Source of the DNA: Chloroflexota bacterium
Lineage (GTDB): Bacteria > Chloroflexota > Dehalococcoidia > Tepidiformales > Tepidiformaceae
NCBI GenBank assembly: GCA_026705605.1
Contig: JAPPAK010000006.1
Span: 186,001-250,000 of the forward strand
Direction: 5' to 3'
Length of the DNA: 64,000 bases
Under the pieces are notes generated by a model. That model was given only the letters and a program-made list of their open reading frames with translations, was not told the DNA's origin and ran no database searches. The position numbers and the translations under genes are program-made. Positions 5,307 to 42,914 of the stretch are shown here, piece by piece. Within the stretch, counting starts at the first letter, position 1; every line of letters begins with the position of its first letter.

Positions 5307-5870
5307 ATGCCTCGACTCGACGACTCCGGCGCCGGCTTTGCCGGCGTCTACAGCCAGCACCGCGAGCTCTGGGAAGCCTTCCAGGTGCAGTGGGGCACCC
5401 TCTGGGAGTACGGCTCCCTCGAGCCCCGCATCCGCGACCTCATTCGCATCAAGTCCGCCACCCTCCACGATTGCGACTTCTGAGCGCCCGCTCGCACTGC
5501 TGCGGCGCAGCAGGACGGCATGGACGAAGGCATGATCGCGGCCATCCACGATCCTGAAACCTCCGACCTCGAACCCCGCGTGAAGCTCGCCATGACGTTC
5601 GTCGAGCGCTGGGTGCGCGACGACGCCCGCTCCATCGACGACGGCTTCTTCGCCGAACTCCGCGAGCACTTCAGCGAGCGCGAGCTGCTCGAACTGGCCA
5701 TCACCACCGGCACCGTCGAGCTCTCCCACAAGTTCAACACCGCCTTCGGCGTCATCCCCCGCCACGAGGGCGACACCTACGAGGTCGGCACGCCCAGCGC
5801 CCCGCAGTACATGCGCGACCACCTCGCCTCGCTTGGCATCGAGCCACCCCCCGCGACGGCGGATCGCTGA
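5307..5870 (+). CDS. AhpD-like (carboxymuconolactone decarboxylase family) selenoprotein, TGA codon 59 read as Sec
   Basis: AhpD/CMD-family protein of 187 aa if TGA 5481-5483 is decoded as selenocysteine. The part before the TGA ends ...IRDLIRIKSATLHDCDF, the exact sequence before the second Cys of the family CxxC redox motif. The same frame continues after the TGA as APARTAAAQQDGMDEGMI and runs 129 codons to TGA 5868 with typical CMD helices (LELAITTGTVELSHKFNTAF). The motif is therefore C56-D-F-U59. The ATG at 5307 has a strong CAGGAGG site six bases upstream. A SECIS-like hairpin follows the TGA directly. The acyl-CoA synthetase gene begins one base after the stop. The likely role is thiol/selenol peroxide or disulfide chemistry; the substrate is unknown. 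Alternative: a pseudogene with a nonsense mutation, made unlikely by a second gene of the same design at 40716-41225. Confidence 0.85.
5481..5513 (+). promoter_or_regulatory. Bacterial SECIS-like element after in-frame TGA
   Basis: Starts with the TGA codon (5481-5483). A perfect 7-base-pair stem CTGCTGC/GCAGCAG (5497-5503 and 5507-5513) closes a GGC loop. The first loop G is 21 bases after the TGA, within the range known for bacterial SelB-binding SECIS hairpins, which need G-U or G-G in the apical loop. The second TGA-containing gene in this window has the same loop distance. Confidence 0.75.
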
Positions 5871-39747: not shown

Positions 39748-40704
39748 TTACTGACCCAGCCTCGCCCCGATGAACGCCTGGATGCGGTCTCGCGCCTGCT
39801 GCCCGATGGGGATCGGCGCCGCGTCGAAGCCGTGCGGGCCGCCGGGGTAGACCGCCAGCTCGGACTCGTTGCCCGCCGCCAGCCAGCGCGCGTGCATGAA
39901 CAGCGAATCGTCCAGCAGCGGGTCGTACGACCCCACCGTGAAGAGCGCCGCCGGCATGTTCTGCAGGTGTGCGTTCAGCGGCGACACGTCCGGGTCGGTC
40001 GTATCCACGCTGGGGATGAACATCTCGTAGAACCGGTCAATCGCAGCCCGGTCGAGGCCCCCCTCCGGTCCCACCCCCAGCCGCTGGCTCGGCGTCATCG
40101 AGAGGTCGTACGGACCGTAGACGAGGTTCGCCCCGATGAAGCCCGTGTAGCCGTGCCGGTCCCGCATTCGCAGCAGCGTGACCGCCGCTAGGTGCGCGCC
40201 CGCCGAACCGCCACCGATCAGGAGCCGCTCCGTGCCGAACTCCGCCGCCGCGTTCTCCACGAGCCACACCGCAGCCGCCTCGCAGTCGTCCGGACCTGCG
40301 GGATAGGGGTGCTCAGGCGCCAGCCGGTAGTCGACGCTCACCGTCGCGAGGCCGAACCCCTCGACAAGAGCCAGGTTGGCCTGGTCGCTCATTCGCGCCC
40401 GCCCGATCACCCAGCCGCCCCCGTGGATGTCGAGGTAAACGCCCGTGGGCTCGCGCCCCTCCGGCCGGATGATGCGGATCGAGGCGCCCTCGCCCATGCC
40501 CGGCACCGTGCGCTCCTCCGCCCGGTCGACCGGCGGGGGCACGGGGAATGCCCCGCCACCCTCGTCCATCAGCCGCCGCAACTCGACGAGGTCGGTATTT
40601 TCCATCGAGGGCATCTGCTCGCGCATCGCCACCGAAGCCGCCACGAACTCGCGCGTCTCCTGGCTGATGGCGTCCTCGCCGAAGACGCTCGAATCGAAGC
40701 TCAT
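39748..40704 (-). CDS. Alpha/beta hydrolase, hormone-sensitive-lipase-type esterase
   Basis: Carboxylesterase of 318 aa. The HGGG oxyanion motif is in YLDIHGGGWVIG (near residue 97), the nucleophile elbow is LIGGGSAGAHLA (near 165), the acid is in TVGSYDPLLDDS, and the catalytic His in YPGGPHGFDA (near 295). These define the bHSL family. ATG 40704 lies 11 bases after the selenoprotein gene, with an AGGAG site overlapping its stop, so the two are cotranscribed. Confidence 0.93.
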   Translation of the reverse strand: MSFDSSVFGEDAISQETREFVAASVAMREQMPSMENTDLVELRRLMDEGGGAFPVPPPVDRAEERTVPGMGEGASIRIIRPEGREPTGVYLDIHGGGWVIGRARMSDQANLALVEGFGLATVSVDYRLAPEHPYPAGPDDCEAAAVWLVENAAAEFGTERLLIGGGSAGAHLAAVTLLRMRDRHGYTGFIGANLVYGPYDLSMTPSQRLGVGPEGGLDRAAIDRFYEMFIPSVDTTDPDVSPLNAHLQNMPAALFTVGSYDPLLDDSLFMHARWLAAGNESELAVYPGGPHGFDAAPIPIGQQARDRIQAFIGARLGQ

Positions 40705-40715
40705 CGTGGTTCTCC

Positions 40716-41225
40716 TCAGGAGGGTTTCAGGCCGAACGAGTGGATGAGGCGCCCGTAGCCCATGTAGCTCACGACCGCCCAGCCAATCTCGAGGATCTGT
40801 TCCTCGGTGTAGTGTTCCGCCAGCTCGTCGAACAGCTCGCCGTCGATGTTGGCGTGGTCCACGAACAGCCGCTCGGCGTAGTGGAATGCGGCCTTCTCGG
40901 CCTCGCTGAAGTCCTGGTCGCCCCACGTCGCAATCTTGCCGACGGTGCTCTCCTCGAGGGTCTCACCTTCCCCTGACAGGGGAAGCCGGGCGGCCTGTCA
41001 GAAGTCGCACGCGTTCAGCTGCGCGACCCGCAGCCGCACCATCTCCTTCAGCCGCGCCGAAACAGCGCCGTCCCGAATAAGCGGGCGGTACCACTCGTTC
41101 CAGCGCTCGAACAGCGTCGAGTTGTGCCCAAACACCCGCGTGAAGTCGTCGCCACGCCCACGCAACCCCTCAGGGAGCTCGTCGTCGGTCGCCAGTCGGA
41201 TGTGTGGGGCAGGTTGGTCGGTCAT
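40716..41225 (-). CDS. AhpD-like (carboxymuconolactone decarboxylase family) selenoprotein, TGA codon 76 read as Sec
   Basis: AhpD/CMD-family protein of 169 aa if TGA at 41000-40998 is decoded as selenocysteine. The first part ends KEMVRLRVAQLNACDF, the hallmark preceding the second Cys of CxxC. After TGA the same frame reads QAARLPLSGEGETLEES and continues 93 codons with normal CMD helices (DFSEAEKAAFHYAERLFVDH and ILEIGWAVVSYMGYGRLIHSF) to TGA 40718-40716. The redox motif is C73-D-F-U76. A perfect hairpin with a GTC loop follows the TGA at the same distance as in the gene at 5307. It lies 15 bases after the TPP-lyase gene and 11 before the esterase gene, so it is in a three-gene operon. Confidence 0.88.
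40967..41000 (-). promoter_or_regulatory. Bacterial SECIS-like element after in-frame TGA
   Basis: Minus strand. From the TGA (41000-40998), 12 bases lead to a perfect 8-base-pair stem CTTCCCCT/AGGGGAAG (40985-40978 and 40974-40967) closing loop GTC. The loop G is 21 bases after the TGA. A G-U at the start of the apical loop is the feature SelB recognises in known bacterial SECIS RNAs. Confidence 0.82.
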
Positions 41226-41240
41226 GGCGGAAGTGTACCC

Positions 41241-42914
41241 CTACCCCAGGTACGCCGACCCCGACCGACGGCCCTTCGGGTCCGTCAGCACGTTGACCAG
41301 CGCGACGGTGTTCGCTGCCAGCGCCTCCTGGACGGCGGGCGCGATGTCCGCCGGGTCCTCCACGCGACGCGACCAGCCCCCCACCATCTCCACCGTCTTC
41401 TCGTAGGCGACGGGGAGGAGGGCGGCGATGGGGGGCGCGTCGGGCGCGAACGTCCGGTCCTGGATCGAGTGACCCGCGATGCCCCCGTTGTTCGACACGA
41501 CGATGACGACGTTGCAGCCGATGCGCGCCGCCGTCTCCACCTCCATAGCCGCCGCCCCGAAGGCGTAGTCGCCGAGCACCGCCACCACCTGCTGGTCCGG
41601 ACGCGCCAGCTTCGCGCCGATGGCGTAGGGCAGACCCGTGCCCATGCAGCCCGTCGTGCCCGAGTTCAGCCGCAGGCGCGACCCGAAGCTGGGCATGACC
41701 GCCCGCGCCACGCCCATCGTCAGCTCCGCGTCGACCGTCACGGTCGCGTCGCGGTCGAGGCAGTCGCGCACGTCGCGCAGCAGCCGGAAGTGGTTGATGG
41801 GCACCTCGTCCGAGGCCATCGCCTCCGCCGAGCTCGCCTCGTTGCGCGAGCGCGACTCCTGCAGCGTCCCCACCCAGTCGCTGTTCGCGACGCGCAGGCT
41901 GCGGCCGTCGAGCAGCCCGTTGAGCTGCTCGACGGCGATCGCGCAGTCGGCCACGATGCCCGTCTCGACGTCCGCCCCGCTGTAGAACTCCTCCGCCACG
42001 ATGTCGATGTGGGCGAGGCGCGCGCCCTCGGCGAAGCGCGGCGGTTTACCGAACTGGAACACCCAGTTGAAGCGTCCACCCACCATCAGCACGGCGTCCG
42101 CCCCACCCAGCGCCGCCGAGCGCGCCGCGTTCATGAACATCGGGTGGTCGTCGGGAATCGAGCCCCGCCCCATTGGCGACGACACGAAGGGGATGCCCCG
42201 GTCCACGAGCCGCTGGAGCGGCAGCCCCGCCTCCGCCCAGCCCGCGCCCTTCCCCATGATGACGAGCGGCCGGTCCGCCTCCGCCAGCATGTCCGCGACC
42301 GCTTCGAGGGCGGCGGGGTCCGGGTGGGGCCGCGAGATTTCCGGCTCGCTCGTGCGCCACTCGACGTCCGCTTCCTCGAACGGCGTCCGGATCAGTTCGG
42401 CGGGGAAGTCGAGGTAGACGGCGCCGGGGCGTCCGTTCAGCGCGCGCCCCAGCGCGAGATGTACGTACTCCGCGATGCGCGCCTGGCTGTCGACCTGTGT
42501 CGCCCACTTGCAGCCGGGCGCGGCGAACGCGACCTGGTCCGCCTCTTGGAAGGCCCCCAGCCCCCGCTGATTCCCCGCCGACGAGCCCCCCAGCACCACC
42601 AGCGGCATCGCGCTCTCCGTCGCGACGTACATCGGCGTGACGGCGTTCGTGAGCGCCGGTCCCGACCCCACCACCAGCACCCCCGGCTTCCCCCGCGCCC
42701 AGCCCCAGGCCGAGGCGGCGAAGCCCGCCGAGACCTCGTGGCGGCAGTTCACCACCGTGATGCCCTCGCGCTCCATCGCCGCCATGACCTCGATCATGGG
42801 TCCCGCCACCACCCCGAAAGCCGTGTCGATGCCGGCCGCCTTCAGCTGCCGCGCGATGATCTGTCCGCCGTTCAGTTCTGCCACGCCGTGCCCTCCGCTT
42901 GAGGTGGCCGCCAT
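41241..42914 (-). CDS. Thiamine pyrophosphate-dependent lyase/decarboxylase (oxalyl-CoA decarboxylase/HACL-like)
   Basis: TPP enzyme of 557 aa with the three standard domains. The N-terminal Pyr domain has the catalytic Glu in VVNCRHEVSAGFAAS (near residue 60). The central domain has LVIMGKGAGWAEA. The C-terminal PP domain has the GD-x23-26-NN motif (VLGDYAFGAAAMEVETAAR...VSNNGG). This last part resembles oxalyl-CoA decarboxylase and 2-hydroxyacyl-CoA lyase more than acetolactate synthase. Substrate uncertain. It heads an operon with the AhpD-like selenoprotein and an esterase. Confidence 0.88.
   Translation of the reverse strand: MAATSSGGHGVAELNGGQIIARQLKAAGIDTAFGVVAGPMIEVMAAMEREGITVVNCRHEVSAGFAASAWGWARGKPGVLVVGSGPALTNAVTPMYVATESAMPLVVLGGSSAGNQRGLGAFQEADQVAFAAPGCKWATQVDSQARIAEYVHLALGRALNGRPGAVYLDFPAELIRTPFEEADVEWRTSEPEISRPHPDPAALEAVADMLAEADRPLVIMGKGAGWAEAGLPLQRLVDRGIPFVSSPMGRGSIPDDHPMFMNAARSAALGGADAVLMVGGRFNWVFQFGKPPRFAEGARLAHIDIVAEEFYSGADVETGIVADCAIAVEQLNGLLDGRSLRVANSDWVGTLQESRSRNEASSAEAMASDEVPINHFRLLRDVRDCLDRDATVTVDAELTMGVARAVMPSFGSRLRLNSGTTGCMGTGLPYAIGAKLARPDQQVVAVLGDYAFGAAAMEVETAARIGCNVVIVVSNNGGIAGHSIQDRTFAPDAPPIAALLPVAYEKTVEMVGGWSRRVEDPADIAPAVQEALAANTVALVNVLTDPKGRRSGSAYLG

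Follow-up and report, generated by a model that had tools for sequence, protein, structure and literature searches.

Does the TGA codon inside the AhpD-like gene at 40716..41225 stop translation, or is it read as selenocysteine (Sec)? The gene lies in the window, by which we mean the whole 64,000-nucleotide stretch of Chloroflexota (class Dehalococcoidia) DNA that was analysed. We propose that it encodes a CMD/AhpD-like redox selenoprotein in which UGA 76 is read as Sec. Taken as a whole this is the best explanation of the sequence evidence, and we regard it as very probably correct.

RESULTS

A CMD frame runs across an in-frame TGA

On the minus strand the frame 41225-40716 opens with ATG, meets TGA 41000-40998 after N-A-C-D-F, runs on for 93 codons (residues 77-169) and closes with a second TGA at 40718-40716, 11 bases before the start of the next gene at 40704 (Table 1). 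The crossing of the TGA in NACDF-U, the 93 codons behind it and the short gap to the next gene had all been claimed in a preliminary description of this DNA and are borne out by the ORF reading. When read through, the protein matches the Pfam CMD family (PF02627) at 32.4 bits, over the gathering score of 23, and its CxxU aligns with the CxxC of the homolog L052. An AlphaFold model is all-helical; as its pLDDT is only 72.9, and below 50 at residues 80-97, no structural claim is drawn from it.

Table 1. Coordinates of the genes, TGA codons and hairpins of the window discussed in the text
Feature	Position	Strand	Remarks
CMD/AhpD-like gene, predicted selenoprotein	40716..41225	-	169 aa, predicted Sec at residue 76, C-D-F-U; TGA kept in 17 orthologs from other genomes
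In-frame TGA, predicted to be read as selenocysteine	40998..41000	-	aligned with Cys of a CxxC homolog
Bacterial SECIS hairpin	40967..40985	-	8 pairs, loop GUC (40977-40975)
Alpha/beta hydrolase, hormone-sensitive-lipase type (esterase)	39748..40704	-	downstream; adjacent in all nine genus genomes
TPP-dependent enzyme	41241..42914	-	upstream; closest to the NCBIfam models for oxalyl-CoA decarboxylase / acetolactate synthase, under their cut-offs
Paralogous AhpD-like gene, predicted selenoprotein	5307..5870 (about)	+	start codon inferred
In-frame TGA of paralog	5481..5483	+	C-D-F-U
SECIS hairpin of paralog	5497..5513	+	7 pairs, loop GGC; same UGA-to-loop distance as gene at 40716..41225

The TGA and the half behind it are conserved

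A search of 119 relatives returned 16 matches at E 1e-78 or better, our own included, each with one TGA. The 17th match, in genome G029, is weaker, with 34% identity and Cys, and this genome has tRNA-Sec. Across 393 genomes of the class, in many of which only the best 9 candidates were scored, 18 matches of 225-320 bits (again including our own) carry exactly one TGA; G029 reaches 221 bits there, a score raised because it is a row of the query alignment. The 17 orthologs besides our own are 60-97% identical and keep the TGA in all cases, including two from other families at 60 and 62% identity. In the codon alignment the TGA occupies the same column in 18 of 18 sequences. When the region downstream of the TGA was compared with that of the window gene, dN/dS was 0.03-0.44 in 16 of 17 comparisons, dS being saturated in the 17th. 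Judged by these alignments, the downstream half is under purifying selection. The preliminary description had named a missing or frameshifted downstream half in relatives as the observation that would speak against it; the half is intact in all 17 orthologs compared.

These data bear on the simplest alternative, a pseudogene or nonsense mutation in which translation really does end at the TGA and the downstream half is either non-functional or has a start of its own. The interruption of the frame by an in-frame stop is what such a reading has to offer. Against it stand the invariant TGA with purifying selection behind it, the conserved hairpin described below and the lack of any CMD hit with an in-frame TGA in the nine SelA-free family genomes. 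We have rejected it and give it practically no credence.

A hairpin behind the TGA is kept by changes on both sides

The hairpin behind the TGA, CTTCCCCT-GTC-AGGGGAAG, starts 12 nt and has its loop 20 nt behind the codon, counting the nucleotides in between; the distance becomes 21 if the first loop base is included. Both the 8-pair stem with loop GTC, at 40985-40967, and the C-D-F-U motif and TGA-to-loop distance common to the two AhpD-like genes of the window are as first described. Published rules for bacterial SECIS elements ask for a loop of 3-9 nt, an upper stem of 4-16 bp, a G in the first two loop positions and a UGA-to-loop distance of 16-37 nt (PMC13188914), and the window gene, with loop GUC, 8 bp, G first and 20 nt, lies within all of them. 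Is such a stem expected by chance? Among 20,000 synonymous recodings of the same peptide, 66 gave a stem of at least 8 pairs with a G-first loop, in line with the earlier argument that a chance origin is unlikely. For four orthologs with a 7-pair stem, 1168-1282 of 20,000 recodings equal it, so that single genes with such a stem are not striking alone. Against dinucleotide shuffles the folding energy does not stand out (z -0.24 for the window gene, -1.02 for the paralog at 5307-5870), the region being GC-rich.

All 18 orthologs, own included, have a 7- or 8-pair stem with loop GTC behind the TGA (row L105 was not used in the hairpin comparison). The stem of G018 is rebuilt with other letters, CCCCTGTC-GTC-GACAGGGG, and its loop lies three bases further on; one C-G pair has become U-G in G008, and a U-A pair has become C-G, with both sides changed, in G248 and G276. 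The Cys homologs L052 and L098 have no hairpin at that place (3 and 2 pairs). In a sample from the phylum, 41 Sec genes have a longest stem of 5-9 pairs (at least 6 in 39 of them); of 36 Cys genes, 31 reach 2-5 pairs and the remaining five 6 (three genes), 7 and 8. Covariation, which the preliminary description had proposed to look for, was examined in 37 of 45 TGA genes (27 distinct hairpins) from several paralog families; the eight genes left out, three C-G-Y-U genes among them, have their loop elsewhere or lack a clear stem. For the loop position +20, 206 of 216 cells are paired, as opposed to 88-131 when the frame of pairing is slid by 1-3; two-sided changes occur in 7 of the 8 pairs, and permuting the right arms reached the observed pairing in 0 of 1000 trials. 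Pairing in relatives is kept by changes on both sides, and these changes are not all independent events, since the set mixes several related paralog families.

The hairpin also holds synonymous codons fixed. Synonymous codon identity amounts to 772 of 934 pairs in codons U+5 to U+11, compared with 9033 of 15,856 in the part before U together with the part from U+13 onward. The Ser codon at U+8 is TCA in 17 of 18 orthologs, a codon that makes up 4 of the 243 Ser codons in 11 window genes.

The genome carries the selenocysteine machinery

The selenocysteine-machinery search suggested at the outset found all four components in the genome (2.79 Mb, given as 94% complete). The tRNA-Sec scores 71.1 bits against a gathering score of 47 and is read by ARAGORN as tRNA-SeC with anticodon TCA; SelB (302 bits), SelA (518 bits) and SelD (347 bits) are all over their cut-offs. 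In control genomes the searches for tRNA-Sec, SelB and SelD give hits in 14 of 14 cases, over cut-off in 5, 2 and 2, respectively; as all the controls hit too, weak machinery hits are not taken as evidence. The SelD gene (L035, G000:C4:368824-369756) is itself interrupted by a TGA, in G-C-G-G-U, and is by its sequence a selenoprotein.

Could TGA instead be read as Trp or another residue throughout the organism? Such general recoding would account for the open frame and for nothing else. It conflicts with the use of TGA as the terminator of the very same gene, with the presence of tRNA-Sec, SelA and SelB, and with the position of the internal TGA, which falls at the CxxU site in 18 of 18 TGA-bearing CMD hits read in the family sample. 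It was discarded as exceedingly improbable.

Family genomes with and without SelA form a natural control

Across 17 family genomes, an in-frame TGA occurs in 20 of 59 CMD hits from the eight genomes with SelA and in 0 of 43 from the nine without. Thirteen of these genomes were hand-picked: ten of 37 other family genomes lack a strong tRNA-Sec hit, and six of the ten were included. Their 83 CMD hits carry one TGA in 18 of 54 cases (seven genomes with a strong tRNA-Sec hit) versus 0 of 29 (six without); motifs were read in 80 of the 83 rows, the three under the cut-off being dropped. The TGA forms number 5 of 8 hits in our own genome, 4 of 6 in G004, 4 of 7 in G008, 1 of 8 in G009, 1 of 12 in G014, 2 of 8 in G017 and 1 of 5 in G025. 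The remaining four genomes without a strong tRNA-Sec hit were added later and the sorting was redone by SelA, which is over cut-off in G004, G008, G009, G010, G014, G017 and G025, as in our own genome; no SelA hit was obtained in G020, G021, G022, G023, G028, G032, G034, G036 and G037. Of the four added genomes, only G010 has SelA, together with two TGA forms; the remaining three lack both. G010 (L106) is a 78%-complete bin of 290 contigs with SelA, two TGA-form AhpD-like genes and no strong tRNA-Sec hit, the absence of which is probably a gap in the bin. Six SelA-free genomes give tRNA-Sec hits of 47-50 bits, over the gathering score; these were dismissed, as ARAGORN reads them as tRNA-Ser. 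A sister gene that has C-G-Y-U in the genus has C-G-F-C in four SelA-free genomes (G020, G028, G032 and G034).

This control also weighs on the possibility that the UGA is read through without selenium, or acts as a partial stop, yielding short and long forms with different roles. A short form would end right behind C73-D-F, and some termination is compatible with the data. Nevertheless the fixed SECIS geometry, the Sec machinery and the Cys that replaces U in the sister gene of genomes without SelA argue against reading without selenium. This possibility, too, was rejected, and we consider it very unlikely. Reading of UGA 76 as Sec is the explanation that we retain, in keeping with the substance of the preliminary description.

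Five paralogs and an Arg in place of the relay His

The genome holds five TGA genes of the AhpD-like family, all with the TGA at CxxU: the two in the window and those at C7:307675, C4:599792 and C3:257631. The two window genes had been presented as unrelated loci, which is not quite accurate; they are distant paralogs with 27% identity that fall in the same clade. In a tree of 127 rows, built without 29 rows of the phylum sample, all five TGA genes group together in a clade supported at 98/96, which comprises 44 rows (36 Sec, with five of the genes counted twice, and 8 Cys). The place of C3:257631 is unsure owing to its long branch, and the tree comes with warnings about its small number of columns and about long branches meeting. 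The C-G-Y-U gene (C4:599792-600265; L004/L179; relatives L170 and L185) has no clean hairpin, with at most 4 uninterrupted pairs; the folds of the C-G-Y-U genes show interrupted helices only, and their relatives in SelA-free genomes carry Cys. C4:599792 and C3:257631 each adjoin a CMD-like paralog without a CxxC/U pair, L005 (C4:600336-600752) and L007 (C3:258092-258376; Pfam score under the cut-off), respectively, an arrangement reminiscent of an active subunit paired with an inactive one.

Four residues behind U or C, where the AhpD proton relay has His, 43 of the 44 clade rows have Arg. In the family sample this residue is Arg in 16 and Asn in 2 of 18 Sec forms, and His in 13, Arg in 4, Thr in 2 and Gly in 1 of 20 Cys forms. 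A wider view came from a diverse alignment (A3), which finds a match at E 1e-10 in 173 of 400 phylum genomes, Sec and Cys forms together; among the 150 matches listed, every stop inside a match is TGA. Of 144 rows listed from other genomes, 109 (29 + 80) were read as the phylum sample, picked with and without TGA; three of the 80 have no CxxC/U motif, and the Sec:Cys ratio is meaningless, as the rows were hand-picked. The family and phylum samples overlap in a few genes. Here the Sec forms have His in 31, Arg in 19, Asn in 9 and Gln in 2 of 61, and the Cys forms His in 39, Arg in 2, Thr in 2, Gly in 1 and Ser in 1 of 45. The relay His is absent more often from Sec forms (30 of 61) than from Cys forms (6 of 45) in these hand-picked rows, uncorrected for kinship. 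The idea that Sec always goes with Arg at +4, suggested by the family sample, failed in the phylum sample: since 31 of 61 Sec forms have His, Sec does not require Arg. As these sequences group, the Arg type is a clade and not a general partner of Sec. A further Sec group has Asn at +4 (e.g. C-P-F-U-M-D-T-N) and a UGA-to-loop distance of 17-18 nt (L152, L158, L258, L262-L264 and L266-L270). Another CMD gene, L311 (G715:C1:529611-530030), has two in-frame TGAs in one match.

Neighbouring genes

The preliminary description placed the gene in an operon with an esterase and a TPP enzyme. The esterase part holds within the genus: this gene, which is below the cut-offs of the hormone-sensitive-lipase type models, lies directly 3' of the AhpD-like gene in the window and in the eight other genus genomes (L109-L115, L044). 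The TPP part holds less well. The TPP-enzyme gene is upstream in all eight other genus genomes, directly so (13-43 bases) in L112, L113, L115 and L044, which with the window makes five of nine; it is 476-1664 bases off, with other frames between, in L109, L110, L111 and L114. The intervening frames include one of 523 codons without a Pfam match in L110 (3390-4961) and an aspartyl-protease-like frame on the other strand in L111 (4538-5044). Outside the genus, the TPP enzyme is upstream in G016 (L116) and the esterase was not found there; neither gene stands beside nine distant relatives (L117-L121, L096, L097, L045 and L050) in the stretches examined, short for some. The neighbours of distant relatives vary, with citrate synthase (L117), a RibD-type protein (L116) and alcohol dehydrogenase (L121). 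Next to the locus, the segment 42987-50169 of the window carries genes for an SDR, thiolase-like proteins, a Rieske-type protein and an HpaI-type aldolase, which suggests a catabolic island. A catabolic role for the AhpD-like gene itself, also put forward at the outset, is a guess.

DISCUSSION

What would such a protein do? We picture a CMD/AhpD-like redox protein that is small and probably all-helical, with C73-D-F-U76 as its active site. Sec would be inserted at UGA 76 by the cell's SelB and tRNA-Sec, guided by the hairpin directly behind it. By analogy with the AhpD family, the selenol/thiol pair would most likely be a reductant that alternates between an Se-S bond and its reduced state; it may attack a peroxide or a disulfide-like substrate and be re-reduced by a thiol donor. 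A peroxidase role for the window protein is suggested by family resemblance. Arg replaces the relay His that lies four residues after the second Cys: an acidic selenol may not need His as a base, and the Arg may hold the selenolate. As the gene sits tightly before the esterase and near the TPP enzyme, the substrate might conceivably come from the step that these enzymes carry out.

How might the Arg branch have arisen? One scenario is that a distinct AhpD-like branch, widespread in Chloroflexota, became Sec-dependent early and changed its relay His to Arg, the general base being dispensable with Sec, and that duplications gave rise to at least five selenoproteins in one genus. We offer this tentatively and consider it somewhat unlikely; if it were true, Cys could not simply replace Sec without other changes. 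A practical consequence concerns annotation: when a gene finder takes the TGA as a stop the window gene is cut short, so a set of redox enzymes is likely missed in these genomes. The clade moreover provides a natural set of comparisons (Sec paired with His, Sec paired with Arg and, where the Sec machinery has been lost, Cys paired with Arg) for studying what an AhpD-like active site gains from selenium and for what reason certain lineages retain several selenoproteins from a single family.

How does the window protein compare with known systems? A 2005 study of the Sargasso Sea reported CxxU AhpD-like and CMD-domain selenoproteins (PMC1088965), counts published in 2008 give 299 for AhpD-like 1 (COG2128) and 70 for AhpD-like 2 (pfam02627) (PMC2398784), and two reviews tabulate AhpD-like and CMD-domain selenoproteins (PMC9312934, PMC13188914). 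For Chloroflexi, a 2006 set contains 3 selenoproteins (PMC1794560). The CxxU selenoproteins of marine metagenomes share with the window gene PF02627, CxxU and a hairpin behind the UGA whose small loop opens with G (PMC1088965, PMC2398784); as far as their descriptions go, they are set apart from it by the Arg at +4 and the five paralogs in one genome seen here. In the titles and abstract openings of the open-licence literature on Chloroflexota and Dehalococcoidia selenoproteins, we saw no five-paralog set with Arg for the relay His, and a report elsewhere is possible.

Among family models, no NCBIfam model is reached at its cut-off by the window protein. The best is NF053654, GroundWater_YciW (seleno)protein, at 49 bits against 310, which is also the best-scoring NCBIfam model for six other CMD-like genes scanned. 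TIGR01926 gives 26.7 against a cut-off of 81.8, NF041047 and NF041238 are not listed up to E 1, and the AhpD core model TIGR00778 gives 26.1 bits, just under its cut-off of 27.8. Profile searches match PA0269 of P. aeruginosa (PDB 2o4d/2ijc) at 44 bits and, more distantly, the debrominase Bmp8 (PDB 6ohi; identity from the record name only) at 39 bits. The AhpD proton relay consists of Glu118, Cys130, His132, Cys133 and His137, the last His being invariant in the structures compared (PMC3141380). This five-residue relay is incomplete in the window protein, where the spacing of E61, C73 and U76 is kept and the His132 and His137 positions are F75 and R80. The Glu 12 residues before the first Cys and the C-x-x-(C/U) spacing are thus shared with AhpD of M. 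tuberculosis and PA0269, whereas Sec stands for the second Cys and Arg80 for the relay His (His137/His55); at the His132 position PA0269 has Tyr (PMC3141380). By its sequence, the window protein is a selenoprotein of a known kind, belonging to a subfamily that lies below all NCBIfam cut-offs and is marked by unusually many paralogs and an altered active site.
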